DNA of 64,000 nucleotides, taken from IMG/VR virus record IMGVR_UViG_3300020442_000017, positions 1 through 64,000 of that record; one strand, written 5' to 3'. Positions 22,595 through 49,715 of this stretch are shown piece by piece. The translations under genes were made by a program, and so were the position numbers. The notes beneath the pieces are model-generated. The model did not search any database, had not been told where the DNA came from, and worked only from the letters and a program-made list of their open reading frames with translations. The stretch comes from a virus. Each line of letters starts with the position of its first letter. Within the stretch, counting starts at the first letter, position 1.

Positions 22595-22596
22595 AC

Positions 22597-22638
22597 TGTC
22601 ACATAGGTAGTTGCATTGGTGCTTGCACTGGTTATAAT
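22597..22638 (+). promoter_or_regulatory. Promoter with upstream TGTCAC box
   Basis: TGTCAC 22597-22602, 8 bases, TTGCAT 22611-22616 as -35, 16 bases, TATAAT 22633-22638. This copy has no terminator hairpin, so the box is not simply part of a terminator. It drives the 43-codon gene at 22664. Confidence 0.75.
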
Positions 22639-22663
22639 AGCACCGTGTCTACAACATTACTAC

Positions 22664-22795
22664 ATGAAACTATCTCTTAAGAACACAAAGGCAGAATTAT
22701 TTGATGCCGTTCAAAAGAGTGATGATATTCGTCAGGAACGTAATTTCCTCGCATATACACTAGGTGCTGTATGGATCTGGGGGTTACTGTTCTAG
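22664..22795 (+). CDS. Small protein with hydrophobic C-terminus
   Basis: 43 aa. A charged N-terminal half (DAVQKSDDIRQERN) is followed by a hydrophobic tail (LAYTLGAVWIWGLLF) that could sit in the membrane. It lies alone between a promoter (TATAAT 22633) and a Rho-independent terminator (22817), so it looks like a single-gene transcription unit. Function unknown. Confidence 0.6.
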   Translation: MKLSLKNTKAELFDAVQKSDDIRQERNFLAYTLGAVWIWGLLF

Positions 22796-22809
22796 GACAG
22801 TTCAAAAAG

Positions 22810-22850
22810 TGTCACAGGGGTGCTCCAGCACCCCTTTTTTTGTGTATAAT
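22810..22850 (+). promoter_or_regulatory. Promoter module merged with a terminator
   Basis: TGTCAC 22810-22815, then 29 bases that hold the terminator hairpin, then TATAAT 22845-22850. The -35 position falls inside the hairpin (poor match). It serves the genes from 22874. Confidence 0.7.
22817..22841 (+). terminator. Rho-independent terminator
   Basis: Stem GGGGTGC/GCACCCC (7 bp) with loop TCCA, followed by seven T. It ends the 22664 transcript and is embedded in the next promoter module. Confidence 0.9.
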
Positions 22851-22873
22851 AGTAATGTATTCAACAAATCACC

Positions 22874-23119
22874 ATGATTTACGAACTCCAAGAAGACATT
22901 CTTTATTGCCAAGATGTTCTCGGTTGTGATGCTGAAGAGACTAACGATCTCATCACTGCTGCTGAACGTATTGGTACTCCCTCTGTTGAGTATTTTGCTG
23001 ATGAATTCATCTTCATCGCAGAGGGTTGTGATGATATCATCAAGTATCATACTGATGAGTATCTTAATCTCAATGCATTCAATGAATTGCATGGTATCTA
23101 TTTTGAGGAGGTTGAGTAA
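22874..23119 (+). CDS. Hypothetical acidic protein
   Basis: 81 aa, not recognised. Strongly acidic (many Asp and Glu; ends GIYFEEVE). It is the first gene after the promoter at 22845, with a leader of about 17 bases, and its stop overlaps the next start (TAATG). Small acidic early proteins of this kind are common in cyanophages; a host-takeover role would be speculation. Confidence 0.7.
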   Translation: MIYELQEDILYCQDVLGCDAEETNDLITAAERIGTPSVEYFADEFIFIAEGCDDIIKYHTDEYLNLNAFNELHGIYFEEVE

Positions 23120-23322
23120 TGGTACACTCTGACTTCTTTGGTATGTCTTTCTGGTTGGATGACAACAATGATTTGATGTACTGTCCTACATTCAAAGGTA
23201 ACAAACCAGATCTTGACAATTCTGGTTACGTCTGCGAATGGGATGATTGGGAAGGGGTTGACTTTAATGAACTCTTTGCTATAGTATCAAAGTTAGTGAC
23301 ACTACAACAACTAGCAGCATGA
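23119..23322 (+). CDS. Hypothetical protein
   Basis: 67 aa, acidic, aromatic-rich (FFGMSFWLDD, CEWDDWEGVDF). It overlaps its upstream neighbour by one base and its downstream neighbour by four bases (ATGA). Function unknown. Confidence 0.7.
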   Translation: MVHSDFFGMSFWLDDNNDLMYCPTFKGNKPDLDNSGYVCEWDDWEGVDFNELFAIVSKLVTLQQLAA

Positions 23323-23561
23323 AAACTGTTACCATCCATGAACGTTTCCCGTATCGCTACGTACAATGTGGTACAATAGAACTGAACGGTATGCCTGACT
23401 ATCGTATTCAAAAGTATGATGAATGGACTAAGAGGTATAAAGACATGTATCTCTTAGATAATTCAGTTCAATTAGATTATGCTATGGAGGACTTTGAATA
23501 CACTAAATGGTTAGATCCTGCTCGTGTTCCCTGTTACATCAAAGATCGTGTTTTCAACTAA
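23319..23561 (+). CDS. Hypothetical protein
   Basis: 80 aa, aromatic-rich (RFPYRYVQCG, KWLDPARVPCYI), not recognised. Starts in an ATGA overlap. Its 3' end overlaps the putative nuclease gene, which must use a GTG start inside this gene. Confidence 0.7.
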   Translation: MKTVTIHERFPYRYVQCGTIELNGMPDYRIQKYDEWTKRYKDMYLLDNSVQLDYAMEDFEYTKWLDPARVPCYIKDRVFN

Positions 23562-24141
23562 ATTACTGAAACTTGCTGTTGATCGTGCGTTGGGTAAACC
23601 AACAAAAGATCAAGGTGAGATGTTTGAGGAACTGTATTCGCATTACATGAATGATGCGAACAGTTCCACTTTGCGTGAGCATATTACTGCTGCTGTTGCA
23701 GGGTGCAAGACTATTCCAGGAAAATTAGGTAGAGATGCCATTGATATCAATGGTGTTGAAAAAGAGATTAAACCTAAGAATTTTACAGGCAAACGTACTA
23801 ATGGTGGTGGTTGTTTCAACGACTACACTAGAGCACGATTTAATAAAGATTCTGATGTCAATCTACCTATCATATCTTCACTATTTGCTGAAGGTATGCT
23901 AATGTATGTTGTAGAGTTCAAGTTTGAAACTATTGCACATAGATTAGTTGAACAAATCATACGCATATGTGAGGAACAGGGCAACAGATATGTCCGCTCT
24001 TGCTCTTGGACATACGCACAATGGATTGATGATCCTGATCTAATAGTTCACTACATAAACAAGGATCTACTCAAAGAACATGCTCACTATGGTGAGGGTG
24101 TTGTTGTTGGTCCACTATACAAAAAACTCATGAAGTTGTAA
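23548..24141 (+). CDS. Putative PD-(D/E)XK-type endonuclease
   Basis: About 197 aa from the GTG at 23548; another in-frame GTG lies at 23524. The core reads GRDAIDINGVEKEIKPKN: acidic residues followed after about ten residues by E-I-K, the spacing seen in PD-(D/E)XK nucleases (restriction and homing enzymes, phage nucleases). A second VVEFKFE lies about 50 residues later. No known restriction subtype is recognised. It sits in a run of small overlapping genes. A nuclease could act on host DNA, but the assignment rests on the motif alone. Confidence 0.5.
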   Translation: MFSTKLLKLAVDRALGKPTKDQGEMFEELYSHYMNDANSSTLREHITAAVAGCKTIPGKLGRDAIDINGVEKEIKPKNFTGKRTNGGGCFNDYTRARFNKDSDVNLPIISSLFAEGMLMYVVEFKFETIAHRLVEQIIRICEEQGNRYVRSCSWTYAQWIDDPDLIVHYINKDLLKEHAHYGEGVVVGPLYKKLMKL

Positions 24142-24142
24142 A

Positions 24143-24406
24143 ATGCCAGTTTATAGAGACTATGAGATTAGAATTAATCTCAATGAATTGATTGAGCAGA
24201 GAATTCCTTGTTGTGATCTATTACATCCTGATCACTGCTTGACAGAATCTCAAATTGCAGATATTGCACATGATATTAACATGGATCTAAATTTGCATCC
24301 AATTTATCATCAAATTGATGATCATATCATGCGTTATGTAAATGCTGCACATATTGAAAACTCAGACCACTGGGTTGAAAACAGACTACCAGATCTAGAG
24401 GAATAA
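24143..24406 (+). CDS. Hypothetical His/Asp-rich protein
   Basis: 87 aa, not recognised. Rich in His, Asp and Cys (PCCDLLHPDHC near residues 22-32; IYHQIDDHI), which could bind metal, but no family pattern is visible. One base separates it from each neighbour, so it belongs to the same operon as the putative nuclease. Confidence 0.7.
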   Translation: MPVYRDYEIRINLNELIEQRIPCCDLLHPDHCLTESQIADIAHDINMDLNLHPIYHQIDDHIMRYVNAAHIENSDHWVENRLPDLEE

Positions 24407-24407
24407 C

Positions 24408-24752
24408 ATGTCATCTAAAGACCAAAGAACTGTTGATGATTTTGAATCAACATATGATAAATGGGAACGTGCTAAAGGTCTCTTTATTGAGTCATTGTAC
24501 AAACCTGATCATGAACTTCGTGGTTGTGCTCACAATCAGAAATGTTTCTATGAACTCATGGCAATTCGTGATGAGGTAGTAGAAGTGGCACGTGAAATGG
24601 TAAATCCACATAAAATAGTAAACAGTGGAATTCCAACACTACCAAGCACACAACTACCAGTAGATTCATTTGTTGAATCAAAATCATACGAATATGCTGC
24701 TGATATCACAATGCGTGATATTGTACGATTTCAACGTGGGAATTCTCTATGA
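24408..24752 (+). CDS. Hypothetical protein
   Basis: 114 aa, helical N-terminal half (DDFESTYDKWERAKGLFIE), not recognised. It overlaps the next gene by ATGA. No membrane segment or catalytic motif is seen. Confidence 0.7.
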   Translation: MSSKDQRTVDDFESTYDKWERAKGLFIESLYKPDHELRGCAHNQKCFYELMAIRDEVVEVAREMVNPHKIVNSGIPTLPSTQLPVDSFVESKSYEYAADITMRDIVRFQRGNSL

Positions 24753-24976
24753 GTCAATTCCCATTTGCAGTGGGTGATCATGTTGTAACCAAAGATAGCG
24801 AAGCAGGTTACATTGCATTCATAGATCACGCATATTTTACATTATGCATACATCAATGGGAAAATCCAGATGCCATGTGGGGATTTAATCAGGTAAAGTT
24901 GGTGGTGTTTAGGGAAGATTGGAAGCATGTCAGAAAAATATATAAAGGAACAGATACTGGAACAACTGAGAAATAA
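24749..24976 (+). CDS. Hypothetical small beta-rich protein
   Basis: 75 aa. The pattern VGDHVVTKDSEAGYIAF, then FTLCIHQW, then VKLVVF suggests a compact SH3-like beta barrel. I recall similar small proteins in other cyanophages, function unknown. Start overlaps the previous stop (ATGA); the last 50 bases overlap the next gene in another frame. Confidence 0.72.
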   Translation: MSQFPFAVGDHVVTKDSEAGYIAFIDHAYFTLCIHQWENPDAMWGFNQVKLVVFREDWKHVRKIYKGTDTGTTEK

Positions 24977-25169
24977 TGAAGATGACTATTGGTGTCTTCC
25001 TCAGTATGGATTGATTGCTGATTGGTATCTTCGTTATTGGTATCTACATATTGCAGTTATGCAACTTTTGGAGATACAAGATGAATATCAAGGACCATGG
25101 CCCTTGAGAGATGAAGGTTATAAGACTGCTCGTCGTGGTGTTATGCCTGCAAAAGAGTGGTGGAAATAA
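24927..25169 (+). CDS. Hypothetical aromatic-rich protein
   Basis: 80 aa, very rich in Trp and Tyr (WYLRYWYLHIAVMQLL around residues 33-48), perhaps membrane-associated. It overlaps the previous gene by 50 bases, so the first 16 codons are shared out of frame. It ends the operon before the metalloprotease. Confidence 0.65.
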   Translation: MSEKYIKEQILEQLRNNEDDYWCLPQYGLIADWYLRYWYLHIAVMQLLEIQDEYQGPWPLRDEGYKTARRGVMPAKEWWK

Positions 25170-25229
25170 ATTGAATAATGTGTTAGAATACTTAGACTAA
25201 GACCCTTTTTGATTATAGGATTAGAGACA

Positions 25230-25913
25230 ATGAAAATGGCAATGAGTTTTATTGGTTTGTTTGCATCAATGCTTACAGTACCAGTGATGGCAGATCCAAT
25301 TGATAAAGAGAAACATTATTATACAAACCATGCTATGGGTTGTATGTTGCTTAGAGAATGCACAGACCATGTTGTAGAGATCAAAGATATCAATGACATC
25401 CGTAAAGAACTACCTGATAGTTATTATGATGATATTGCTAGTGAGTTTAATTCTCTCGTCCGATCACTTAATAAGGTCAGAGTTAAAGTTTTTCTAGCAG
25501 ATGAGAAGTATTTTCCAGTAGGACATCGTGGTGTGTATCATACTGTAGGTAATAACTTCTTCTTGAATAAGACATTCATGCATCGTCCACATGTACTCAT
25601 GAGTGTTATGCGTCATGAAGGATGGCACGCTGCACAAGACTGTATGGCAGGTACTGTTGAGAATAATTTGATTGCTATTATTCATAATGAAGAGGATGTA
25701 CCTCAGATCTGGCAAGACATTGCTACCAGAACATATCAATTCCAACCATCTGCTATTCCATGGGAGAAAGAAGCAACGTGGGCAGGAAAGACTGAAGGCA
25801 TGACTGCTAGAGCACTAGAAGTATGTGCTTCTGATACTCCTATGTGGGAAGTATATGAACCAACCCCACTAACACGTAAGTATCTCGTAGAAGAGGGATG
25901 GATGAAACCATGA
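25230..25913 (+). CDS. Exported zinc metalloprotease-like protein (HEXXH)
   Basis: About 227 aa from the ATG at 25230; an upstream TTG at 25209 is less likely because the signal peptide begins at this Met. Residues 1-21 form a Sec-type signal peptide (hydrophobic core FIGLFASMLTVPVMA, cut before DP). HEGWH at 129-133 is the zincin HEXXH motif: His129 and His133 would bind zinc and Glu130 catalyse. A downstream EKEATWAG (179-186) may give the third ligand. Cysteines at 38, 44, 138 and 199 suit the periplasm. The gene is alone, followed by a strong terminator module. Substrate unknown; roles in host envelope damage or protein turnover are inference. Confidence 0.72.
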   Translation: MKMAMSFIGLFASMLTVPVMADPIDKEKHYYTNHAMGCMLLRECTDHVVEIKDINDIRKELPDSYYDDIASEFNSLVRSLNKVRVKVFLADEKYFPVGHRGVYHTVGNNFFLNKTFMHRPHVLMSVMRHEGWHAAQDCMAGTVENNLIAIIHNEEDVPQIWQDIATRTYQFQPSAIPWEKEATWAGKTEGMTARALEVCASDTPMWEVYEPTPLTRKYLVEEGWMKP

Positions 25914-25930
25914 GTGGACACTTATCTTAG

Positions 25931-25972
25931 TGGCACAGAGGGGGTGGCAACACCCCCTTTTTCGTGTATTAT
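25931..25972 (+). promoter_or_regulatory. Promoter module merged with a terminator
   Basis: TGGCAC 25931-25936, 8 bases, TGGCAA as -35, 16 bases, TATTAT 25967-25972. The hairpin lies between box and -10. It drives 26064 through a leader of about 85 bases. Confidence 0.72.
25940..25962 (+). terminator. Rho-independent terminator with GCAA tetraloop
   Basis: Stem GGGGGTG/CACCCCC closing a GCAA (GNRA) loop, followed by five T. It ends the metalloprotease transcript. Confidence 0.92.
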
Positions 25973-25973
25973 T

Positions 25974-26038
25974 AAAGAGTGGAAGGCAAGAGTGAGCGAC
26001 CCCAGAGGAAAATGCTCTTTAATTTGAATCTCTTCCAC
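25974..26038 (+). promoter_or_regulatory. Structured 5' leader of the 26064 gene
   Basis: AAAGAG 25974-25979 can pair with CTCTTT 26015-26020, and GTGGAAG 25979-25985 with CTTCCAC 26032-26038. The two pairings cross and share base 25979, so they imply a pseudoknot or two alternative folds. No known riboswitch was recognised. Confidence 0.4.
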
Positions 26039-26063
26039 ACCCTATTCTTCATTTTTCATTGAA

Positions 26064-26336
26064 ATGCAACTCACCAATCAAGTCTGCATCGTTGATTTCT
26101 TCCCTGAAGCATTCATTGCTGAGGCAGATGAGGAGAGAGGCATGAAAGTTGTTGTCAAGCGATTCATCAAGCGTGTGACTTTCCCCTGTGATTATGGCAA
26201 AGACCAGCAATCATGGTCTGTTGTGACCGCATCAACCTATGCTAATGAGGTTGCTGAGCGTATTGCACACGGTGCTGAGGTAACTGCTTTCAACACTGAA
26301 AAGTGCCCTGACTCTTATACACCTTGTGCTTGTTAA
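26064..26336 (+). CDS. Hypothetical protein
   Basis: 90 aa, not recognised. Mixed composition with a basic stretch (VVVKRFIKRVTF) and terminal Cys residues (CPDSYTPCAC). It has a long structured leader after the promoter at 25967 and is followed 2 bases later by a 42-aa gene. Confidence 0.7.
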   Translation: MQLTNQVCIVDFFPEAFIAEADEERGMKVVVKRFIKRVTFPCDYGKDQQSWSVVTASTYANEVAERIAHGAEVTAFNTEKCPDSYTPCAC

Positions 26337-26338
26337 TT

Positions 26339-26467
26339 ATGTCATGTAACACAAATGAAGAGATCATGGAATATCTCTTTGAACAAGTTCAGGAAGAGTA
26401 TCCTGAACTGTCTGTAATAGAACAGGCAACCATCGCATCCCATCGCTTCTGGAATTTAGCACAATGA
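26339..26467 (+). CDS. Small hypothetical protein
   Basis: 42 aa, acidic helix-forming sequence (EEIMEYLFEQVQEEYPEL). Reading ATG to TGA is supported by the ATGA overlap with the next gene and tight packing with the previous one. Confidence 0.55.
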   Translation: MSCNTNEEIMEYLFEQVQEEYPELSVIEQATIASHRFWNLAQ

Positions 26468-26628
26468 ATGATTCTCTGACATTTGATGACCTTATTGAAG
26501 GGATGGCATCTGATCCTGTTTTCATCAAACAATGCGAAGAAAACAATCGTAAGTGGGATGAAGAGGCAGCGGCAGAGCTAGAGGTGACAGTTGATGAACT
26601 GCACACTATGCTGGGCATCACTGCCTGA
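26464..26628 (+). CDS. Small acidic hypothetical protein
   Basis: 54 aa, acidic (KWDEEAAAELEVTVDEL). It starts in an ATGA overlap. A promoter box for the next gene lies inside its last codons, as in several other places here. Confidence 0.6.
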   Translation: MNDSLTFDDLIEGMASDPVFIKQCEENNRKWDEEAAAELEVTVDELHTMLGITA

Positions 26629-26640
26629 CCACGCTATACT
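26599..26640 (+). promoter_or_regulatory. Promoter with diverged upstream box inside coding sequence
   Basis: CTGCAC 26599-26604, 8 bases, GGGCAT as -35, 16 bases, TATACT 26635-26640. The box is a one-base variant of TGKCAC, but the spacing is the same as elsewhere. It drives the gene at 26667. Confidence 0.6.
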
Positions 26641-26666
26641 ATAGACATCAGCAAGGGACACCACCC

Positions 26667-26918
26667 ATGACCGTTCAAGTCGTCAAGCACTCCTTCTACA
26701 AGATTGAGATTGACACACATGAAGCACCACTGCACCCCATCGTGTACTTCCGTAAGGAAGGCAAGTGCAAGACTGCCAAGGGCATGGATCGTCAGCACAA
26801 CCGTATCGTGAACGAGACTGTAGAGGCATGGCGTCCATTCTCTCAGCAGATCCGTCGCTACACCATCTCTCGTGTGCCAGCTGACGTAGTGGTACAAGGG
26901 GACATCCGCAAGGCGTGA
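26667..26918 (+). CDS. Hypothetical basic protein
   Basis: 83 aa, basic (YFRKEGKCKTAKG, QQIRRYTISR), not recognised. It has a ribosome-binding site-like AAGGGA upstream. The codons favour C in the third position, unlike the T-ending codons of the structural genes, so it may have a different history or translation demand. Confidence 0.75.
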   Translation: MTVQVVKHSFYKIEIDTHEAPLHPIVYFRKEGKCKTAKGMDRQHNRIVNETVEAWRPFSQQIRRYTISRVPADVVVQGDIRKA

Positions 26919-26931
26919 TCCTTGCTATACT
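26890..26931 (+). promoter_or_regulatory. Possible weak promoter module
   Basis: TGGTAC 26890-26895, 30 bases, TATACT 26926-26931, within the end of the 26667 gene. The box differs by one base from TGKCAC and the -35 is poor. Confidence 0.45.
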
Positions 26932-26956
26932 AAGTTCATCAAACAAAGGACACCAC

Positions 26957-27421
26957 ATGACCGTAACCACCTTCGCTGACTTCGCTTCTGCTCAGGAAGC
27001 ACGTGAGGAGAATGCTCAAACCATCCTCAACTACACACAATGCCTCTGTGAGGCACTGGTTCGTAACTACGTTGAGTATAGCATTCGTGGTCTCAAGCGG
27101 TCTGCACTGCTTGCAGGAGACCAGCGTGAGGTCTGCTACTACAACCAGCGTATTGAGGAAGTGCTTCAGGAGACACCTGACGTTGACTTCTATATCAAGT
27201 CTGGTCGTAAGTACCACAAGATCATCCAGAAGGATCTTAAGTGTGGTAGTGGTGCTGAGAGCGTACATGCGTTCGTTGACAAGAAAACTGGTGACGTTTA
27301 CAAAGCAGCATCATGGAATGCACCTGCTAAGATTGTCCGCTTCAACCTTACCAGCGACAAGGATCGTGAATACCTGTTGGAGAAAGCAGATTGGGCAGGT
27401 GGTTACCTCTATGTCCGTTGA
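26957..27421 (+). CDS. Hypothetical protein
   Basis: 154 aa from the ATG at 26957; a longer reading from 26915 would precede the promoter at 26926 and is less likely. The helical first half (EAREENAQTILNYTQCL) is followed by a beta-rich half (SGRKYHKIIQK, FVDKKTGDVYKAASW). I recall similar proteins as conserved cyanophage hypotheticals. The region is clearly higher in G+C than the structural genes (31 of 60 in 26941-27000). Function unknown. Confidence 0.78.
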   Translation: MTVTTFADFASAQEAREENAQTILNYTQCLCEALVRNYVEYSIRGLKRSALLAGDQREVCYYNQRIEEVLQETPDVDFYIKSGRKYHKIIQKDLKCGSGAESVHAFVDKKTGDVYKAASWNAPAKIVRFNLTSDKDREYLLEKADWAGGYLYVR

Positions 27422-27446
27422 CATCTGCGGAGTAATATGCTAAATT
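27418..27446 (+). promoter_or_regulatory. Sigma70-type promoter
   Basis: TTGACA 27418-27423, 17 bases, TAAATT 27441-27446, overlapping the end of the 26957 gene. Transcription would start near 27453, which supports the ATG at 27485 over the one at 27437. Confidence 0.6.
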
Positions 27447-27484
27447 ATTGTACGTTACCAATTGTTCCGCACGGAGTGTCAACT

Positions 27485-27715
27485 ATGAGACAAACAAGTT
27501 ATCTTGTGCATGATGGTCATGCATACTATTTTGATCAACAGGGTTATCCTATGATTGCACCTCTTGATGAAGACGGTACTGTTTCATGGTTAGATGAGTG
27601 GTCTTTCTATTGGGAAGACCACACAGAAGAAGAAGGAGAATATCATGCCCATTTGTTCAATCAACTTCTAAACATCTCTAAACTGTCTCATGAAAAACTT
27701 ACCTGCTCTTACTAA
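27485..27715 (+). CDS. Hypothetical acidic aromatic protein
   Basis: 76 aa from ATG 27485; the alternative ATG 27437 would be upstream of the predicted transcription start. Beta-like (SYLVHDGHAYYFDQQGYPM) followed by an acidic stretch (WEDHTEEEGEYH). It overlaps the next gene by 26 bases. Unknown function. Confidence 0.65.
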   Translation: MRQTSYLVHDGHAYYFDQQGYPMIAPLDEDGTVSWLDEWSFYWEDHTEEEGEYHAHLFNQLLNISKLSHEKLTCSY

Positions 27716-28004: not shown

Positions 28005-28158
28005 TAAGAAGCGTATGGATGAACTTCTAGCAATGAAAGCGTTGCTAGAAGATACAGTAGAATACTATTGTGATGAATACATGGTATCAGGTGAAATTGC
28101 TTGGACTATGGTAGCATCACTTGCTGACGCTAAACTTAATGTTGATTTTCCTAAGTGA
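27994..28158 (+). CDS. Small hypothetical protein
   Basis: 54 aa, helical (KKRMDELLAMKALLEDTVEY). The reading frame is supported by overlaps at both ends: it starts within the last codons of the previous gene, and its TGA overlaps the GTG start of the deaminase gene. Confidence 0.58.
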   Translation: MEIDKKRMDELLAMKALLEDTVEYYCDEYMVSGEIAWTMVASLADAKLNVDFPK

Positions 28159-28520
28159 CTCGTTCTACTGGTAGTATTCATGATTTCGCAGTGAGTATAG
28201 CAATGACCTCCACTTCACGTAGGAGAGTCGGTGCTGTACTCTACAATAAGAACAAAGTTGTAGCAACAGCAACAAATATAGAGACTAAATCACACCCATT
28301 GCAAGCATACTTTGCTGAACGTGTTGGTCTTGGTGAGAAGATATACCTTCATGCTGAGATTGCTGCGTTGATCAAGTGTAAGCAAGAGTGTGATACAATT
28401 GTAGTCGCACGTGTTAACTCACAAGATAGACTACGAATGGCAAAACCATGCCCAATTTGTGAACTTGCTCTTAAAGAAGCAGGTGTATCCAACATTTATT
28501 ACACCACAAATGAACACTGA
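28155..28520 (+). CDS. Cytidine/deoxycytidylate deaminase-family protein
   Basis: 121 aa with a GTG start overlapping the upstream stop. Residues 66-68 are HAE and residues 98-102 are PCPIC, the zinc-binding and catalytic signature of CMP/dCMP deaminases (His66, Cys99 and Cys102 bind zinc, Glu68 shuttles protons). The N-terminus (RRRVGAVLYNKNKVVATATN) also fits. It probably feeds the pyrimidine nucleotide pool for phage DNA synthesis together with pyrE 2 kb downstream. Shorter than T4 dCMP deaminase (193 aa) and lacking its extra zinc region, so substrate (free nucleotide, tRNA or other) is open. Confidence 0.8.
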   Translation: MTRSTGSIHDFAVSIAMTSTSRRRVGAVLYNKNKVVATATNIETKSHPLQAYFAERVGLGEKIYLHAEIAALIKCKQECDTIVVARVNSQDRLRMAKPCPICELALKEAGVSNIYYTTNEH

Positions 28521-28870: not shown

Positions 28871-29201
28871 ACAGTCACTCACTAAAAACCTATCTAAACT
28901 CACTACTACGAGTAAGAAGAAGGTAAAGAGTGTTAAATCCACTCCCAAACCATCACGTAAGACTAGAATTGATAAGAAACCAGTCTTTATTGATGTAAAA
29001 TCAGATGCTAAATGGGAACTATGCAATGGTAATGGTAACATAAAGAACACATCTCCGTGGTATCTACACCCAGTAAAGCAAAATCATTTTAATAGATCAT
29101 GGTTTAGAGACTATGATGACGCATGTAAACAAATTAAAAGGTTGAAACTACGACCTGAAGACTACACATTATGGCATTGGACGAATCAAAAATCATCGTA
29201 A
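28848..29201 (+). CDS. Hypothetical protein with Lys-rich N-terminus
   Basis: 117 aa. Residues 1-47 are strongly basic and low in complexity (TTTSKKKVKSVKSTPKPSRK), suggesting DNA or RNA binding. The C-terminal half is compact and Trp-rich (WELCNGNG, SPWYLHP, RSWFRDYDDA). It overlaps the oxygenase gene by 31 bases. Function unknown. Confidence 0.7.
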   Translation: MARKSKTEQSLTKNLSKLTTTSKKKVKSVKSTPKPSRKTRIDKKPVFIDVKSDAKWELCNGNGNIKNTSPWYLHPVKQNHFNRSWFRDYDDACKQIKRLKLRPEDYTLWHWTNQKSS

Positions 29202-29767
29202 GAGATGATTATCTACCACAACAGCAGTATGAACAACTAAAGGACTATTTCCTAGGTCCACGTTGTTATTGGTATTATTGTGGTAACTATAGTGGTGGAT
29301 ACCCACAGATGGAGCATGTATTCTATAATGAATTTGTAGGCACACAGTGTTATGCTGGTGTGCCATTTCAAGCAGGTGAGGGTATGGCATTGATGAAACC
29401 ATTGCTTAGTTCATTTAATCATTCAGCACTCCTTCGTATTCGTGCAATTTGTAATTGGAGGACTGGTACAATGACACAACGTGGATGGCATGTTGATGTA
29501 CCATTTGATTGTACCACTGCTATCTACTATCTACATGATAGTGATGCACTCACATTATTCAAAGATGGTGATGATGAACCATTGGAGTGTGAGACCAAGG
29601 GAAATAGATTGGTTGAGTTTCCATCACAGTATGAGCATACGGTAACACCAATGACCACACCAGAGCGTAGGATACTAATCAACTTTAATTTCATACGAGC
29701 ATTGCCTGTTAAAGATGGACAGACATTTGTCTCACATAGATTATCAACACAACATCCTATGTCTTGA
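29171..29767 (+). CDS. 2-oxoglutarate/Fe(II)-dependent oxygenase
   Basis: 198 aa. The facial triad is visible: His107 and Asp109 in GWHVDVPFD, and His156 in YEHTV. Arg166/167 (PERRILINF) would bind the 2-oxoglutarate carboxylate. The double-stranded beta-helix strands fit (AIYYLHDSD, NRLVEFPS). Oxygenases of this class are common in cyanophages, usually without known substrate. It is the first of three in this window, and the three are not close relatives of one another. Substrate unknown. Confidence 0.85.
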   Translation: MALDESKIIVRDDYLPQQQYEQLKDYFLGPRCYWYYCGNYSGGYPQMEHVFYNEFVGTQCYAGVPFQAGEGMALMKPLLSSFNHSALLRIRAICNWRTGTMTQRGWHVDVPFDCTTAIYYLHDSDALTLFKDGDDEPLECETKGNRLVEFPSQYEHTVTPMTTPERRILINFNFIRALPVKDGQTFVSHRLSTQHPMS

Positions 29768-29792: not shown

Positions 29793-29812
29793 TATTAAAG
29801 TCTAGGAGCATT

Positions 29813-30025: not shown

Positions 30026-30056
30026 TAAATACCTCGTATGTAATGGTGATGACATC

Positions 30057-31142: not shown

Positions 31143-31461
31143 ACATAATGATTGTATGGATGAATACTTTGAGTGTTCATCCTCATGCCCCCCTGATGAT
31201 AATACATGCCATACTGATTGCGTAGAAGAAATGAAAGAATGTCAAGTACCAGGAATTGATGTGTCTGATTATTATCATGGTCTTATTCCATATAAGTCAT
31301 GGGATAACTCTCATGGTGATCTCATCGCTGAATTACTACAAATTGCAGCACAACTAGGTGGCACTATGGAAAGATCAACTAGAGTGACATCACAAGGTAC
31401 ATCATCACAAGTTATCACAATTGAATACAATGTACAAACTAACGATAAAAGAACACCTTAA
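31129..31461 (+). CDS. Hypothetical Cys-rich protein
   Basis: 110 aa. The N-terminal 40 residues carry six cysteines in CxxxxxxFxCxxxC and CxxxCxxxxxxC spacing, which could form a disulfide or zinc knot. The C-terminal part has a helix (AELLQIAAQLGG) and a beta hairpin. No signal peptide is seen. Function unknown. Confidence 0.7.
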   Translation: MSTDKHNDCMDEYFECSSSCPPDDNTCHTDCVEEMKECQVPGIDVSDYYHGLIPYKSWDNSHGDLIAELLQIAAQLGGTMERSTRVTSQGTSSQVITIEYNVQTNDKRTP

Positions 31462-31543
31462 GTTCCTTAAACAACTCAAGAAAGATCTTAAAAAACCTGG
31501 TACACCACTAAGGAAACGTGACAAAATCAAGAACATTCATTGA
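31430..31543 (+). CDS. Small Lys-rich protein
   Basis: 37 aa, very basic (HLKFLKQLKKDLKKPGTPLR). It overlaps both neighbours out of frame, so it may be an overprinted gene or a chance frame. The ATG and the clustering of basic residues make it plausible. Confidence 0.4.
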   Translation: MYKLTIKEHLKFLKQLKKDLKKPGTPLRKRDKIKNIH

Positions 31544-32144
31544 ACAATACCCTAATACATTAACACAAGAACAGTGTAAAACCTTGATCTCCCTATACAA
31601 ACAAGATGATAGGAAAGTTCCTGGTACTATTTCACGTGGTATTGTAGATAAACGTATTAAACATAGTATGGATTTGCAATGCACATTCTCTGATAAGAAG
31701 AACTGGGCACAATACTCATCCATACTATATCAACCATTGAATGATGCCATCTTCAAATATGTAAATGAATACGACTATCTAATGGATCTTCCTCCATTTG
31801 AAGTACAAGACAACTATAATATTCAAGCATATAAAAATGGTGAAGGTTTTGGTAAACTACATTGTGAACTACAAGGTATGGGTAATAGACTACTTGCATG
31901 GATGATCTATCTTAATGATGCAGCATCTGGTACTGATTTCCCATGGCAAGATACAATAACACAAGCAGTAGAAGGTACATGTGTTATATGGCCAGCAGGT
32001 TTCACTCACCCACATAGAGGAGTAACACCTAATAAAGGATATAAAGTCATTGCTACTGGATGGTGTCAATACATACCCAGAGAAGAAGAATTACCACATC
32101 TCATGAGCACATACAAGAAGGCATTTCCACATAAGTTTGCTTGA
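31518..32144 (+). CDS. 2-oxoglutarate/Fe(II) oxygenase-like protein with HxE variant
   Basis: 208 aa, GTG start. The core matches prolyl-hydroxylase-like phage oxygenases: YKNGEGFGKLHCE (105-117), LLAWMIYLNDA (125-135), TDFPWQD (139-145), VIWPAGFTHPHRG (156-168) and GYKVIATGW (174-182). The usual HxD is H115-C-E117 here, and Lys176 stands where Arg or Lys binds 2-oxoglutarate. His164 or His166 is the distal ligand. The Glu substitution is tolerated in some family members but may change activity. Last gene before the 450-bp non-coding region. Confidence 0.78.
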   Translation: MTKSRTFIEQYPNTLTQEQCKTLISLYKQDDRKVPGTISRGIVDKRIKHSMDLQCTFSDKKNWAQYSSILYQPLNDAIFKYVNEYDYLMDLPPFEVQDNYNIQAYKNGEGFGKLHCELQGMGNRLLAWMIYLNDAASGTDFPWQDTITQAVEGTCVIWPAGFTHPHRGVTPNKGYKVIATGWCQYIPREEELPHLMSTYKKAFPHKFA

Positions 32145-32371
32145 CACATCATACACATGGATACTATCCTTTCAACACATTTTACACACACCTCCGCACC
32201 TTGCAATGACTGGGTTTTCCACAGTTTTTGATGTGCTTGTGGAAAACTTTTAAAATCATTAAAAAAATATAGGTAACGTGCGGTGGAGAAGGTGTCTTAG
32301 CCTACCACCTAACGAAAGTCAAGTCAACCCTCAGAAACACTTTGAAACAATCACAGGGACACTTGGGGAAC

Positions 32372-32413
32372 TGGCACACACCCCTTGACAATCCTCGGAA
32401 AACCGTGTATTAT
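32372..32413 (+). promoter_or_regulatory. Strong promoter with TGGCAC box
   Basis: TGGCAC 32372-32377, then TTGACA 32385-32390, 17 bases, TATTAT 32408-32413: the best -35/-10 pair of the set. An inverted repeat TCCTCGG 32392-32398 / CCGAGGA 32428-32434 brackets the -10 and start site, and may be an operator. Confidence 0.82.
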
Positions 32414-32419
32414 TAAAAC

Positions 32420-32491
32420 ATGGACAACCGAGGAATTTCAAAAACTTCAAAAACTCACTTTTTTACTTTTTTAAGTTTTTTACTTTTTTAA
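32420..32491 (+). CDS. Possible leaderless 23-aa peptide
   Basis: ATG lies 7 bases after the -10, where transcription should begin. The frame encodes a short polar start (MDNRGISKTSKT) and a hydrophobic end (HFFTFLSFLLF). It could be a leader peptide, or the transcript may be a small RNA ending in the AT-rich hairpin. Confidence 0.25.
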   Translation: MDNRGISKTSKTHFFTFLSFLLF

Positions 32492-32500
32492 AAAAGTGAG
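32454..32500 (+). repeat. AT-rich inverted repeat
   Basis: CTCACTTTTTT at 32454-32464 and AAAAAAGTGAG at 32490-32500, an 11-bp perfect inverted repeat around T-rich tandem words (ACTTTTTTA). It could melt easily or form a hairpin. Confidence 0.75.
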
Positions 32501-32596
32501 ATTTATGACTTTTTTCGTTTAATTCAGAGGTATTTTCCACAAACCCTGTGGAAAACTCCATATATTCAATATAAATCAACAAAATCATTACAAAAC

Positions 32597-32839
32597 ATGG
32601 CAATTTACTCAAATTTTGAATCAACTGCTGTAAAATCTATTGAAACTACTCCAAATCAAGTAAAAGTAGTGTATAATAGTAATGAAAGTAAAGAATATGC
32701 ATTTGATTGTGAAGATGTCCTAGAATTCGCCAACAATTTGTGTCAAGTTCTCATTGACGCTGAGTTGGATCGTCCCTCTGGAAGTGTCGGACGGTTTCTG
32801 TCACAATCAATCAAGGATCGTGTCCTTATCGCTCAATAA
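32597..32839 (+). CDS. Hypothetical protein, weakly KTSC-like
   Basis: 80 aa. The pattern VKSIETTPNQVKVVYN, then KEYAFDCEDVLEFANNL, loosely resembles the small KTSC beta domain (x-V-x-Y-xxxxxx-L-x-V-x-F). The C-terminal half is different. It follows the DnaA-box region, with a TATAAAT word about 25 bases upstream. Function unknown. Confidence 0.7.
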   Translation: MAIYSNFESTAVKSIETTPNQVKVVYNSNESKEYAFDCEDVLEFANNLCQVLIDAELDRPSGSVGRFLSQSIKDRVLIAQ

Positions 32840-32842
32840 ATA
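32836..32842 (+). promoter_or_regulatory. Late promoter ATAAATA
   Basis: ATAAATA at the end of the previous gene, 35 bases before ATG 32877. It matches the late promoter core seen before the structural genes. Confidence 0.5.
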
Positions 32843-32876
32843 ACTGAACGTTTAGTAAAACCACTGCACATTAATC

Positions 32877-33032
32877 ATGTCCAGGCGTAATAGCAACAAT
32901 TCCTACAAGGATGTGCCCCAAGATGAATACTTTGAAGACTATGGTTATGAAATCAAAAATGTAAAACGAAGTAAGAAGAAGAAGGTAGCAAAGTTTAAGC
33001 AGTATGAGTCGTGGGAGGAGGACAGTTATTAA
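32877..33032 (+). CDS. Small basic protein
   Basis: 51 aa with an acidic middle (DEYFEDYGYE) and a basic run (KNVKRSKKKKVAKFK). It lies between a late promoter word and a promoter-terminator module whose box overlaps its stop codon. Function unknown. Confidence 0.6.
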   Translation: MSRRNSNNSYKDVPQDEYFEDYGYEIKNVKRSKKKKVAKFKQYESWEEDSY

Positions 33033-33034
33033 AG

Positions 33035-33077
33035 TGGCATAGTATTAATTGACTTAAAGATCCTGTTCGTCTATTGT
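33035..33077 (+). promoter_or_regulatory. Promoter module with TGGCAT box
   Basis: TGGCAT 33035-33040, 8 bases, TTGACT 33049-33054, 17 bases, TATTGT 33072-33077. The -10 lies in the loop of the following terminator hairpin. Confidence 0.65.
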
Positions 33078-33097
33078 ATAGATGTACAGGATTTTTT
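33060..33097 (+). terminator. Rho-independent terminator overlapping a promoter
   Basis: 15-bp stem (33060-33074 with 33078-33092), one mismatch and one wobble, three-base loop, followed by six T. It ends the 32877 transcript. Confidence 0.9.
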
Positions 33098-33104
33098 ATT
33101 GTCT

Positions 33105-33281
33105 ATGTTCTTCAAACACATTTCACTTCATGAATACGACCTCACTAACAAGGGCATCTCTCAAGCATGTTATGATGAACTTGTTGCCAGTGGTAACAAT
33201 TCAACCGAAGCACAGTTAAGAGTCCTAGCAGATAACATGCGTGAAGAGTTTAAAGACTACATGCGTCCATTATTTGCTTAG
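33105..33281 (+). CDS. Small hypothetical protein
   Basis: 58 aa from ATG 33105; a TTG two codons earlier is possible. Helical and charged (STEAQLRVLADNMREEFKDY). It follows the promoter-terminator at 33035-33097 and is followed by an AGGAGG ribosome site for the next gene. Confidence 0.65.
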   Translation: MFFKHISLHEYDLTNKGISQACYDELVASGNNSTEAQLRVLADNMREEFKDYMRPLFA

Positions 33282-33292
33282 GAGGAGATAAC

Positions 33293-33460
33293 ATGATGGA
33301 TAAAATTGATTTCCTTACTATAGTCTACGAAGACTATTGCACCAAGCATAGTTTACCTTTTGTCAGTGCAGATGAGCAGGACACGGTAGACATGGATGAG
33401 AAACATGTATCATGGTTGCACACATTCAACGAAATGTGGGACATTGCACAGGACAGTTAA
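33293..33460 (+). CDS. Small acidic hypothetical protein
   Basis: 55 aa, acidic (SADEQDTVDMDEKHVSW). A strong Shine-Dalgarno GGAGGAG precedes the paired ATGs at 33293 and 33296. Followed immediately by a terminator module. Function unknown. Confidence 0.65.
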   Translation: MMDKIDFLTIVYEDYCTKHSLPFVSADEQDTVDMDEKHVSWLHTFNEMWDIAQDS

Positions 33461-33465
33461 GAAAG

Positions 33466-33510
33466 TGGCACAGGGGGTATTGCATTCCCCCTTTTTCTGT
33501 GTCATATTAT
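33466..33510 (+). promoter_or_regulatory. Promoter module merged with a terminator
   Basis: TGGCAC 33466-33471, 8 bases, TTGCAT 33480-33485, 19 bases, TATTAT 33505-33510. It drives the gene at 33537. Confidence 0.68.
33473..33496 (+). terminator. Rho-independent terminator
   Basis: GGGGG 33473-33477 pairs with CCCCC 33487-33491 around a nine-base loop, followed by five T. It ends the 33293 transcript. Confidence 0.8.
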
Positions 33511-33536
33511 AAGAGTCAACCAATTCACAACATTTT

Positions 33537-33860
33537 ATGCGAAAGATTGAACAGCAAATGAACAACGCCATCTCTAACTGCAAAGACTGGAGATCTGGCA
33601 ACACTGAGGTAGTTAACTGCAACGGTGAATCTTTTGTTTATTTGCATGGCAATCACATCGCCACACTGGGTGATGATTTTGTGAGAATCTTTGATGGTGG
33701 ATGGCAATCCAACACCACTAAATCTCGTCTCAATGCAATCATCAACGGTTTCTGTAATGCATTCACTGATGGTGTATTTCAGAAAGATTTTGTGTGGTAT
33801 GTGATGGACGGAGGTGTACAACACCAGTTCGTCAATGGTTATGAATTTCAAGGTGCATAA
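33537..33860 (+). CDS. Conserved phage hypothetical protein
   Basis: 107 aa. The pattern NTEVVNCNGESFVYLHGNHI, then GGWQSNTTKSRLNAI, then VFQKDFVWYV is one I recall from many unrelated phages (short NTxV...YLHGNxIA proteins), function unknown. It has its own promoter (TATTAT 33505) and terminator (33880), so it is a single-gene unit. Confidence 0.82.
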   Translation: MRKIEQQMNNAISNCKDWRSGNTEVVNCNGESFVYLHGNHIATLGDDFVRIFDGGWQSNTTKSRLNAIINGFCNAFTDGVFQKDFVWYVMDGGVQHQFVNGYEFQGA

Positions 33861-33879
33861 TATCGGTTGAACATATACA

Positions 33880-33908
33880 CCACCTGCTTCAATTGCAGGT
33901 GGATTTTT
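33880..33908 (+). terminator. Rho-independent terminator
   Basis: Stem CCACCTGC/GCAGGTGG (8 bp), loop TTCAATT, then ATTTTT. Confidence 0.92.
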
Positions 33909-33941
33909 ATTACCCATAGAGTGAAAACAATTCCAACGAGT

Positions 33942-33982
33942 TGTAACGATGAACTCCTATTGTGGGGTTTATATGTTATAAT
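33942..33982 (+). promoter_or_regulatory. Possible promoter with TGTAAC box
   Basis: TGTAAC 33942-33947, 29 bases, TATAAT 33977-33982. The box has one change from TGTCAC. It drives the gene at 34016. Confidence 0.5.
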
Positions 33983-34015
33983 TACTTCTACGTTCTTTCG
34001 CACGAGGTCTCGCTC

Positions 34016-34141
34016 ATGACTTTCCAGGAGTATTTGGCAGAAGAATTAAAGTATTACGAGGAACACCCAGAGGAGCAAGATCCACTGGAGGCACACTCAA
34101 ACTGTTCTACATTTGAAATAGATTACACAGTACAATCATGA
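34016..34141 (+). CDS. Small acidic hypothetical protein
   Basis: 41 aa, acidic (LAEELKYYEEHPEEQDPLEA). Downstream of the TATAAT at 33977. Its TGA overlaps an ATG at 34138 (ATGA). Confidence 0.58.
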   Translation: MTFQEYLAEELKYYEEHPEEQDPLEAHSNCSTFEIDYTVQS

Positions 34142-34208
34142 TAGAAGATGTAACACATAGTCTACACGATTGGGAGGATTTTTGGTACAATTCAACCACT
34201 TCTACAAG

Positions 34209-34251
34209 TGGCACAGTTGTGCTTGATTCTCCAGTTGATGTGTGCCATAGT
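34209..34251 (+). promoter_or_regulatory. Promoter module giving a predicted leaderless transcript
   Basis: TGGCAC 34209-34214, 8 bases, TTGATT as -35, 17 bases, CATAGT 34246-34251. The ATG at 34258 is exactly 7 bases after the -10. Confidence 0.55.
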
Positions 34252-34257
34252 AACAAC

Positions 34258-34554
34258 ATGGAAAACAACCCAATGATTTCCCTTCCAAATCCAACTAAGA
34301 AAATTCTCATGGCAGACAACATTGTTGATCGTGATGAACTCCAACAGAATCTAATTGATCAGATTGTTGATGACATGGATCTGAAAACGTTGATGCAATT
34401 AGTTGCAGAACAGTTGGATCATAATTATGATTCGTATACAGTAGATGAACTGATTGCAGAAGCAGAGGAATACTATCCACATTTGCTAGAGAAGGAAGAA
34501 CATAATTTCTCTGAACTTGAGGCACAATGTAATGATTATGGTGTGGGCAAGTAA
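34258..34554 (+). CDS. Hypothetical acidic protein, two possible starts
   Basis: 98 aa from ATG 34258. The frame also extends up to ATG 34138, which overlaps the preceding stop, giving 138 aa. The promoter module at 34209-34251 lies inside that extension, whose composition is low-complexity Ser/Thr, so the shorter form is favoured; both may be made. The protein is acidic and helical (DDMDLKTLMQLVAEQLDHN, VDELIAEAEEYYP). Function unknown. Confidence 0.65.
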   Translation: MENNPMISLPNPTKKILMADNIVDRDELQQNLIDQIVDDMDLKTLMQLVAEQLDHNYDSYTVDELIAEAEEYYPHLLEKEEHNFSELEAQCNDYGVGK

Positions 34555-34595
34555 GTAACACAAACTGGTCAGCCGCTTCGCTCCAGTTGGCGAAG

Positions 34596-34638
34596 TGGCA
34601 CACCATCGCCCCATTCTCCCCCCACCTGTGTCTATAAT
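34596..34638 (+). promoter_or_regulatory. Promoter module, leaderless
   Basis: TGGCAC 34596-34601, 31 bases, TATAAT 34633-34638. ATG 34645 lies at the expected +1. The -35 position reads CCCATT. Confidence 0.65.
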
Positions 34639-34644
34639 GTCTGT

Positions 34645-34833
34645 ATGACATACGAAATCTTCTGCCCCGCTCTGGGCGAAACAGAGCACACCACTGATCT
34701 AGACCGTGCGATGGATCTGTGTTTCTCCATGCATGACGAGTCCAACTCCTATGCTTGCATCCGTGACGCCTTCGGTGATGTCGTTGGTGAATACGGTGAC
34801 ATCATGGAGGCAGTCGCTGAGGGTTTAGTCTGA
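34645..34833 (+). CDS. Hypothetical protein
   Basis: 62 aa, acidic, not recognised (YEIFCPALGETEHTTDLDRA, then FGDVVGEYGDIMEAVAEGL). No room exists for a Shine-Dalgarno if transcription starts 7 bases after the -10, so it is probably translated from a leaderless mRNA. Higher G+C than the structural genes. ATGA overlap with the next gene. Confidence 0.72.
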   Translation: MTYEIFCPALGETEHTTDLDRAMDLCFSMHDESNSYACIRDAFGDVVGEYGDIMEAVAEGLV

Positions 34834-35024
34834 TGCATTTCAACGTACACTACATTGATTTTGATTTTGACGATGAGCACATCAGTAAGGATGAGCGAAT
34901 TGAAATCACCCAAGACCACATCGGTACATGGGAGGCATGTGACGAGGACGACCTCATAGAAGAGATTACCACATCCAGTGGATGGTGCATCAAAAAAATT
35001 GATTACGACATCCAGTTGAAGTAG
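34833..35024 (+). CDS. Hypothetical acidic protein
   Basis: 63 aa, acidic (DFDFDDEHISKDERIEI). It starts at the base where the previous gene's TGA ends, and its stop abuts the next promoter box. Function unknown. Confidence 0.7.
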   Translation: MHFNVHYIDFDFDDEHISKDERIEITQDHIGTWEACDEDDLIEEITTSSGWCIKKIDYDIQLK

Positions 35025-35066
35025 TGGCACACAAGGGGTCGCATTGGTCACCCCTTGCCCTATAAT
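35025..35066 (+). promoter_or_regulatory. Promoter module with hairpin
   Basis: TGGCAC 35025-35030, 8 bases, TCGCAT, 16 bases, TATAAT 35061-35066. CAAGGGGT 35032-35039 pairs with ACCCCTTG 35050-35057, but no T-run follows, so this hairpin is not a typical terminator. Confidence 0.75.
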
Positions 35067-35091
35067 AACTGTATACACAACAAAGGAGAAC

Positions 35092-35397
35092 ATGAAACGC
35101 CTTGAACTCATCATGGGTCGCAACATTCCAGACAATGGCATTGTGACCGATGCAATGATGAACGACTTCATCAAACGTGAAATCATGCCACATTTTGAGT
35201 ATGGCACTTTCATTGATGGCGAAGGTCTCTGGAAAGGTGAACTAGAACAGACAAAGATTTTCTACCTTGAGGTGCCTGACTCTGAGGTTGATGATCACAT
35301 GATCTCCCTTAATTGCATTGCTGCCATATATAAAAGGCAGTTCAGACAAGAGTCAGTTTTGATCTCTCAAGTGCAAACAAACGCCATTTTTAACTAA
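35092..35397 (+). CDS. Hypothetical protein
   Basis: 101 aa from ATG 35092, which has the ribosome site AAAGGAG; the frame is open further up to 35044, but that is before the -10. Mixed alpha/beta (RLELIMGRNIPDNGIVTDAM), not recognised. Its stop overlaps the next start (TAATG). Confidence 0.72.
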   Translation: MKRLELIMGRNIPDNGIVTDAMMNDFIKREIMPHFEYGTFIDGEGLWKGELEQTKIFYLEVPDSEVDDHMISLNCIAAIYKRQFRQESVLISQVQTNAIFN

Positions 35398-35567
35398 TGC
35401 CATCCATTCGCTATTGGGACGGGGTTGATCAACGTCACCCCCGTACAATTACATACAGAACAGACACCCAAGCAAGGGACGCCCATGCATACTATATCAG
35501 TTGTGGCATCCGATGCGAATTGATAGACAGTAGAGGAACTGTCACACGTGGTGTCGCCTTTGCTTGA
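35397..35567 (+). CDS. Small basic hypothetical protein
   Basis: 56 aa, basic (RYWDGVDQRHPRTITYRTD), rich in Arg and Tyr. TAATG overlap with the previous gene. The promoter box for the next gene lies inside its last ten codons. Confidence 0.6.
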   Translation: MPSIRYWDGVDQRHPRTITYRTDTQARDAHAYYISCGIRCELIDSRGTVTRGVAFA

Positions 35568-35582
35568 TCGGTGCCCTATACT
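35540..35582 (+). promoter_or_regulatory. Promoter module, leaderless, box inside coding sequence
   Basis: TGTCAC 35540-35545, 8 bases, TCGCCT, 17 bases, TATACT 35577-35582. ATG 35589 lies at the expected +1. Confidence 0.65.
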
Positions 35583-35588
35583 AAGAGC

Positions 35589-35813
35589 ATGAACACAAAC
35601 GAACTTCCCAAGCACATGCAAGACCGTTACGAAGTCAGAGACGGTTTCATCATCAACAAAGGATGCACAGACCCTGTGATCTTCGCCGCCATGGAATCCA
35701 TTAAGGCAGACATGCTGAGAGAAGCACAGGAACGAAAGGAGATCCGTGAGGGTCGCCGTCCCCTCCCCCGATATGACAACTGGGGAGTCTGGAACATCAG
35801 CGACCGCCACTGA
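35589..35813 (+). CDS. Hypothetical protein
   Basis: 74 aa from ATG 35589; the open frame extends to a GTG at 35571, before the -10. Charged helix (ADMLREAQERKEIREGRR) followed by an aromatic tail (YDNWGVWNISDRH). Predicted leaderless. Function unknown. Confidence 0.68.
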   Translation: MNTNELPKHMQDRYEVRDGFIINKGCTDPVIFAAMESIKADMLREAQERKEIREGRRPLPRYDNWGVWNISDRH

Positions 35814-35832
35814 TACAAAACAACTACTCATC

Positions 35833-36054
35833 ATGATCAGCATTTCACCCATCTCCCCTACCGTCTCCCAGTCAGTATGGACGCTTAAGGTCAACCCCTT
35901 CACAGGGTCATGCCGTGTCCGTTGGTTTAAGGGGTGCTTGACTGAGTACACCTTCAAGACTCGCAAGCGTGACATCCTAGCACTGATGATGGCAGGCGAC
36001 AGGTCACTGGGTCAGTGGGTAAACTGGCACATGCGTAATGGCATTGCTGCCTGA
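35833..36054 (+). CDS. Hypothetical basic protein
   Basis: 73 aa from ATG 35833; longer frames upstream overlap the previous gene. Beta-rich then basic helix (YTFKTRKRDILALMMAGD). The promoter box of the next gene lies within its last codons (ends NGIAA). Function unknown. Confidence 0.65.
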   Translation: MISISPISPTVSQSVWTLKVNPFTGSCRVRWFKGCLTEYTFKTRKRDILALMMAGDRSLGQWVNWHMRNGIAA

Positions 36055-36066
36055 TACCCCTATAAT
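36025..36066 (+). promoter_or_regulatory. Promoter module, box inside coding sequence
   Basis: TGGCAC 36025-36030, 8 bases, TGGCAT, 16 bases, TATAAT 36061-36066. It drives 36094 with a leader of about 21 bases. Confidence 0.75.
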
Positions 36067-49670: not shown

Positions 49671-49715
49671 GACCAGATTCGTCTATAATTAAAGAACTAA
49701 ACGAGACTCAGTGCT

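Follow-up and report, generated by a model that had tools for sequence, protein, structure and literature searches.

Why does a short box recur in front of one small gene after another in a virus genome, and what would act on it? The question is raised by IMG/VR virus record IMGVR_UViG_3300020442_000017, a record of 92,304 bases of which positions 1 to 64,000 form the window analysed here, 64,000 nucleotides (nt) in length. The initial annotation of this window described a recurrent promoter architecture in which the box ASTGKCACA lies at a set distance upstream of a TATAAT-like -10 hexamer at twelve sites. Every one of the twelve boxes was found at its position, and the architecture proved to be real and stronger than first stated. 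Alignment of the window sites revealed a left conserved half that had been overlooked, and the box forms the right arm of a 24-base-pair (bp) imperfect dyad, TGTGMCASTT-N4-AASTGKCACA. The spacing reported at the outset also held, with 29-31 bp between the end of the box and the start of the -10 at 11 of the 12 sites and 33 bp at the site at 33466.

A dyad at a fixed distance from the -10 hexamer

Taken by itself and allowing one mismatch, the 9-mer shows no enrichment (69 occurrences versus 81 expected), whereas the box joined to a correctly spaced -10 is enriched. Exact boxes followed by a -10 (at least 5 of 6 matches) starting 35-39 bp after the start of the box occur nine times in the 92-kilobase (kb) record, all on the + strand, compared with an average of 0.23 in 40 shuffles searched on both strands. 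The full consensus was derived from viral-contig loci and a 24-bp matrix from viral contigs only; the 92-kb record is a fair test of this matrix because none of its sequence entered it. At a threshold of at least 14 bits the matrix found 12 sites in the record, 11 of them within 22.5-36.5 kb and the twelfth outside the cluster at 67418. The controls gave a mean of 0.27 and a maximum of 2 over 100 shuffles of the record, and a single site with the reversed matrix. Two of the twelve original members are weak, namely 22597 (11.3 bits) and 26599 (12.6 bits). Two further copies had been described as weaker, of which the one at 26890 is in fact a strong dyad (24.4 bits) and the one at 33942 is absent from the matches of at least 8 bits.

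The element was also sought in viral contigs with the pattern CAGT-N6-AGTGGCACA-N26-32-TATAAT, which returned at least 120 stretches, compared with none when the letters of the box were scrambled. The first 120 loci (0.94 megabases), from which the matrix was partly built, hold 429 sites at the 14-bit threshold versus 4 with the reversed matrix. A later set of 91 loci, which lay outside matrix building, holds 513 such sites versus 6.

Geometry was measured on unselected sites, defined as those not picked by the scan patterns, which meant dropping 150 of 413 sites in the first set and 144 of 510 in the later set. This recount is used in place of earlier counts over 327 sites that included pattern-selected ones (for example, a -10 at 29 bp in 236). 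Among the 263 unselected sites of the first set, a -10 (at least 5 of 6) lies at 27-32 bp on one side of the dyad in 196 and on both sides in 28; the corresponding figures for the 366 unselected sites of the later set are 235 and 54. Spacings of 28, 29, 30 and 31 bp account for 44, 131, 66 and 14 cases in the first set, compared with 2.7 per position elsewhere, and for 28, 175, 113 and 19 in the later set, compared with 4.1. The -10 usually begins 28-31 bp past the dyad, and at the modal spacing of 29 bp the dyad occupies about -65 to -42. Its centre thus falls at -53.5, and not near -45 as the position of the box had initially suggested.

The seventh base downstream of the -10, the predicted +1, is a purine at 184 of the 196 unselected one-sided sites of the first set and at 221 of the 235 of the later set, and T occupies +2 at 153 of the 196 and 184 of the 235. 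This purine-T initiator is independent evidence of transcription starts because it played no part in choosing the sites. The -35-like hexamer of the initial annotation reads TTGACA at 32385. In the related promoters it is weak, exceeding shuffled spacers only modestly (four or more of six positions match at 110 of 327 sites versus 33 of 327). The dyads of the window are given below with their predicted -10 hexamers, open reading frames (ORFs) and accompanying hairpins.

22580..22603, + strand: dyad with a weak left arm, 11.3 bits; -10 TATAAT at 22633; ORF 22664-22795
22793..22816, + strand: dyad, 25.9 bits; -10 TATAAT at 22845; ORF 22874-23119
22816-22835: terminator-like hairpin between the preceding dyad and its -10, from the terminator scan
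25914..25937, + strand: dyad, 19.9 bits; -10 TATTAT at 25967; ORF 26064-26336, leader 85 nt; a hairpin followed by a T run in the spacer before the -10, seen in the sequence and absent from the terminator-scan list
26583..26606, + strand: dyad with its right arm short of one base, 12.6 bits; -10 TATACT at 26635; ORF 26667-26918
26873..26896, + strand: dyad within the coding end of the preceding ORF, 24.4 bits; -10 TATACT at 26926; ORF 26957-27421 (DUF7717)
32355..32378, + strand: dyad, 27.2 bits; -35 TTGACA at 32385; -10 TATTAT at 32408; no ORF of 30 codons begins within 160 nt
33018..33041, + strand: dyad, 21.2 bits; -10 TATTGT at 33072; ORF 33099-33281, TTG start
33449..33472, + strand: dyad, 22.2 bits; -10 TATTAT at 33505, the longest spacing (33 bp from the box end); ORF 33537-33860 (Kyano_Gp96)
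33473-33490: spacer hairpin of the preceding dyad, from the terminator scan
34192..34215, + strand: dyad, 22.4 bits; -10 CATAGT at 34246; ORF 34258-34554 (DUF7326), ATG at the predicted +1
34579..34602, + strand: dyad, 19.3 bits; -10 TATAAT at 34633; ORF 34645-34833, ATG at the predicted +1
35008..35031, + strand: dyad, 15.8 bits; -10 TATAAT at 35061; ORF 35092-35397 (DUF3574)
35523..35546, + strand: dyad with complementary inner arms GACAGT/ACTGTC, 17.5 bits; -10 TATACT at 35577; ORF 35589-35813, ATG at the predicted +1
36008..36031, + strand: dyad, 23.6 bits; -10 TATAAT at 36061; ORF 36094-36345 (DUF7249)
39055..39447, + strand: gp25 baseplate wedge gene (PF04965, E-value 3e-14), a landmark downstream of the dyad cluster

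Since the ATG stands exactly at the predicted transcription start in the ORFs beginning at 34258, 34645 and 35589, their messages may be leaderless.

Recurrence in T4-like cyanophages

The genes of the region resemble those of T4-like cyanophages (gp25, with Kyano_Gp96, DUF7326, DUF7249 and DUF7717 among the small genes), and short blocks of the window are about 78-86% identical to ACG-2014j, Sf-CH1b and S-CAM4. With up to three mismatches, the dyad occurs in all nine T4-like cyanophage genomes tested (Syn9, 4 copies; S-PM2, 9; P-SSM2, 13; P-SSM4, 5; P-HM2, 8; S-CAM4, 4; ACG-2014j, 4; Bellamy, 3; Sf-CH1b, 1), and none was found at that threshold in the genomes of P-SSP7, Syn5, S-TIM5, Ma-LMM01 or T4. 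A control pattern run across the same phage genomes gave one site, in P-SSM4. Of the first viral loci, 117 of 120 have ORFs in common with known T4-like cyanophages. The dyad at 26583..26606 is kept in Sf-CH1b; in S-CAM4 and ACG-2014j the flank upstream of the orthologous promoter has diverged, yet dyad-like arms and the -10 persist.

In four isolates many of the copies, though not every one, fall in the small-gene region ahead of gp25. In P-SSM2 these are 11 of 13 copies, at 44.6-67.7 kb (gp25 at 72.7); in P-HM2, 5 of 8, at 35.7-39.8 kb (gp25 at 44.1); in S-PM2, 6 of 9, at 2.2-20.7 kb (gp25 at 26.9); and in Syn9, 2 of 4, at 48.6 and 53.0 kb (gp25 at 58.3). The matrix at 9 bits or more gave 11 matches between 30 and 62 kb of P-HM2, seven of them in the cluster. 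Six of these seven dyads lead to a gene start 16-27 nt past the predicted transcription start, and both strands are used. The dyad at position 39292 of the P-HM2 record has a -10 at a distance of 30 bp on each side, with divergent genes beginning 25 and 20 nt further on. Seven dyads of Syn9, at 44774-52996 in the small-gene region ahead of gp25, are each paired with a -10 (4 or more of 6 matches) at 29-30 bp, and a gene start follows within 51 nt in five of them.

A separate arrangement was observed in P-SSM2, where three dyads share one intergenic stretch (record 66336-66614; 24337-24615 of locus L351) and their -10 hexamers face the strand that has no annotated gene. Unannotated antisense or small RNA genes are a possible explanation.

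Candidate readings of the dyad

The dyad is probably the operator of a dimeric activator, serving early promoters that are read by a host polymerase of the sigma-70 type. Each site would then drive a single small early gene, or a few of them, in a T4-like cyanophage. The RNA polymerase of the host, carrying a sigma-70-type factor, would read the near-consensus TATAAT and start at the seventh base past the -10, while a dimeric protein on the dyad, touching the polymerase, would make these promoters strong early in infection. What the sequence itself shows is the element with its spacing and initiator, its recurrence and clustering in T4-like cyanophages and its use on both strands in P-HM2; binding by a protein, activation as its effect and the early timing of the genes are inferred. 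An activator is favoured because the dyad lies upstream and is strictly spaced, as activators are generally placed, which agrees with the earlier suggestion that the site would suit an activator in contact with RNA polymerase.

Several observations weigh against this proposal. The viral loci were picked for carrying the element, meaning that at least one site per locus is present by selection and raw per-locus counts are inflated. The later set also overlaps the first in sequence, with more than 20% of the 40-mers shared in 18 of its 91 loci. A -10 is present on neither side in 39 of the 263 and 77 of the 366 unselected sites. Several copies lie far outside the gp25 region, among them 3 of the 8 in P-HM2. 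Syn9 has 21 matches of at least 8 bits, many within genes; two such examples, at 7098 and at 57661 (this one likewise ahead of gp25), have no -10. Among the P-SSM2 and S-PM2 matches of at least 13 bits, an annotated gene start lies within 60 nt of the predicted start in only 15 of 28. No binding protein was identified among the candidates considered. Finally, 300 host-family genomes contain 20 sites (up to two mismatches) in 13 genomes, compared with 2 for a control, and a variant, TGTGCCACTAATYAAA..., recurs in three host-family genomes.

The host-family sites speak for a rather unlikely alternative, in which the phage exploits a transcription factor of the host that recognises the dyad; the requirement of early genes for something present at once favours it as well. 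However, the 13 of 20 host sites examined with their neighbours stand in unrelated contexts, and no coherent regulon emerged from the 300 genomes. Moreover, P-SSP7, Syn5 and S-TIM5, which are phages of marine picocyanobacteria, do not carry the dyad. As no matching regulon was seen in the host family, the putative dimeric protein is more plausibly phage-made or carried in the virion.

It is unlikely that the dyad is instead the operator of a phage-made repressor that shuts off transcription between the early and middle phases. Dyads upstream of many genes in one region would suit a single common regulator of this kind, and an AbrB/MazE-like protein, Syn9 gp92 (57 amino acids; locus L015, 3843-4016), is encoded in that region. 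Yet the dyad lies upstream of the -35 and covers neither the -10 nor +1, and its distance to the -10 is fixed within 1-2 bp, a constraint typical of polymerase contact. The protein itself matches PF04014 with an E-value of 2.5e-4, below the cut-off of that family, and gives weak matches in the Protein Data Bank (PDB) to PemI-like and MazE proteins (E-values 0.027-0.028). Its relatives occur in 322 records, all cyanophages by name and hypothetical in the 30 rows inspected, and in seven of the nine dyad-bearing isolates; a weak match is also found in S-TIM5, itself without the dyad. As a regulator gp92 is possible but not supported; it was not found in P-HM2 or Bellamy, both dyad carriers, or in the 92-kb fragment.

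Other candidates for the dyad-binding protein were set aside. DUF7326 (34258-34554) scores over its cut-off in 8 of 10 dyad records, with no match in S-CAM4 or ACG-2014j. DUF1825 is found in 9 of 9 dyad isolates and 0 of 5 others, a pattern expected of any core gene. Its predicted structure, a helical bundle with a mean predicted local distance difference test (pLDDT) score of 92, has no PDB match at an E-value of 0.001 or less and therefore gives no sign of DNA binding. A Pfam scan of 82 selected Syn9 proteins found no classical helix-turn-helix family and one weak Arm-DNA-binding match (E-value 0.032).

A further, strongly disfavoured explanation treats the repeats as RNA hairpins or terminators that belong to the genes before them, the neighbouring promoters being coincidental. 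In its favour, 51 of the 327 sites have a terminator-like hairpin in the spacer that separates dyad from -10, compared with 0.9 for shuffled spacers and none for the stretch upstream. This hairpin is, however, distinct from the dyad, and 276 of the 327 sites have none. The arms of the dyad also show no covariation: across the 196 unselected sites of the first set, which replace an earlier count of G/G in 181 of 327, the S positions of the two arms read G/G in 55, G/C in 50, C/C in 49 and C/G in 17. The dyad is not an RNA stem, because only 67 of 196 sites have complementary S positions (G/C or C/G). In addition, one dyad is flanked by promoters for divergent genes on both sides, and an Rfam search of 21.0-39.5 kb returned no family at the gathering score. 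The initial view that terminator hairpins do not account for the sites is thus upheld, and the hairpins within the spacer imply that some upstream transcripts probably stop inside the next promoter. Chance or base composition, to which the unenriched 9-mer would point, can be dismissed, as was initially argued, since the full element beats shuffles, the scrambled box and the reversed matrix, and the controls exclude it unless they are faulty.

The 24-bp consensus and its fixed geometry provide a bait for the putative binding protein and a promoter test piece. In the ocean T4-like cyanophages reach very high abundance, and the scanning rule based on the dyad marks candidate early operons in their uncultured members, including short and possibly leaderless genes.

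Described promoters and matches outside phage genomes

The initial annotation held that no cyanophage promoter of this form had been described, which is probably wrong. Doron et al. 2016 (ISME J 10:1437) reportedly described a novel regulatory element that controls the transcription of early genes in Syn9, obtained similar results for P-TIM40 and noted that the element is conserved among T4-like cyanophages. Because of that report and the dyad at seven Syn9 promoters, the dyad is probably the same element and so already reported in outline. Both belong to T4-like cyanophages, the Doron element reportedly widespread among them and upstream of early genes, the dyad present in 9 of 9 genomes tested. 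The dyad symmetry, the use in both directions, the initiator and the terminators nested in the promoters may or may not be part of the earlier description.

In the portions of the literature available to the search, no description of the dyad motif appeared, and no protein acting on the early promoters of T4-like cyanophages was named. The available parts of PMC6359870, PMC9964418, PMC9004378, PMC8776855 and PMC10452541 likewise contain no such motif. Cyanophage genomes have been searched for sigma-70, T4 late, Pho and NtcA promoters (PMC3037559), and early, middle and late classes have been described for P-HM2, with no promoter motif in the part consulted (PMC5082946). Marine T4-like cyanophages are stated to be without T4-like middle promoters and motA and/or asiA (PMC5780444).

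T4 early promoters, which depend on host sigma-70, resemble the dyad promoters in their near-consensus -10 and in the presumed use of host polymerase. The dyad promoters differ in their weak -35 and additional upstream dyad. T4 middle promoters, which combine a MotA box with AsiA, are alike in having an activator element upstream of a good -10. Their MotA box lies near -30, whereas the cyanophage element is a dyad at -65 to -42, and no strongly conserved box was found between -34 and -27 in the 327 sites, where the highest information is 0.36 bit. A novel phage-made or virion-delivered activator dedicated to cyanophage early genes might tentatively be regarded as a third route, beside host sigma-70 alone and MotA/AsiA, for ordering transcription in T4-like phages, with one dimer firing two divergent promoters, a proposal that may well prove incorrect.

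Bacterial boxes offer a second comparison. The boxes of NtcA, Pho and CRP are alike in being dyads or repeats upstream of sigma-70-type promoters. The CRP box is TGTGA-N6-TCACA, and in the dyad the TGTGA and TCACA arms are 14 bp apart and not 6. A sigma-54 promoter reads TGGCAC-N5-TTGC, and no conserved TTGC is found 5 bp past TGGCAC. The letters of NtcA (GTA-N8-TAC) and Pho (CTTA-N7-CTTA), as given in PMC3037559, mismatch the dyad consensus, and GTA-N8-TAC is absent from the logo of the 327 sites.

Among the other genes of the region are a dCMP/cytidine deaminase-like gene (28155-28520), three 2OG-Fe(II) oxygenase genes (29171-29767, 31518-32144 and 38006-38728) and a gene for a PAAR protein (37265-37612).

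Bacterial genome contigs contain 65 stretches matching TGTGNCASTTNNNNAASTGNCACA, of which 25 are from Acidobacteria and 13 from cyanobacteria by a hand count of titles. Flanking ORFs inspected at 19 of the 65 matches revealed no common gene. Six of the Acidobacteria matches lie within one Pyrinomonadaceae bin, and the palindrome pattern in this group is perhaps an unrelated regulon or repeat. Related filamentous cyanobacteria have shared context around their matches (L180 with L218, and L213 with L222). A genome labelled Flavobacteriales, TMED113 (G003 contigs C15, C26, C52, C54 and C70; match L240), carries 20 dyads, and one of its loci, L245, has ORFs that resemble those of the window by eye; these dyads are probably those of a misbinned cyanophage.

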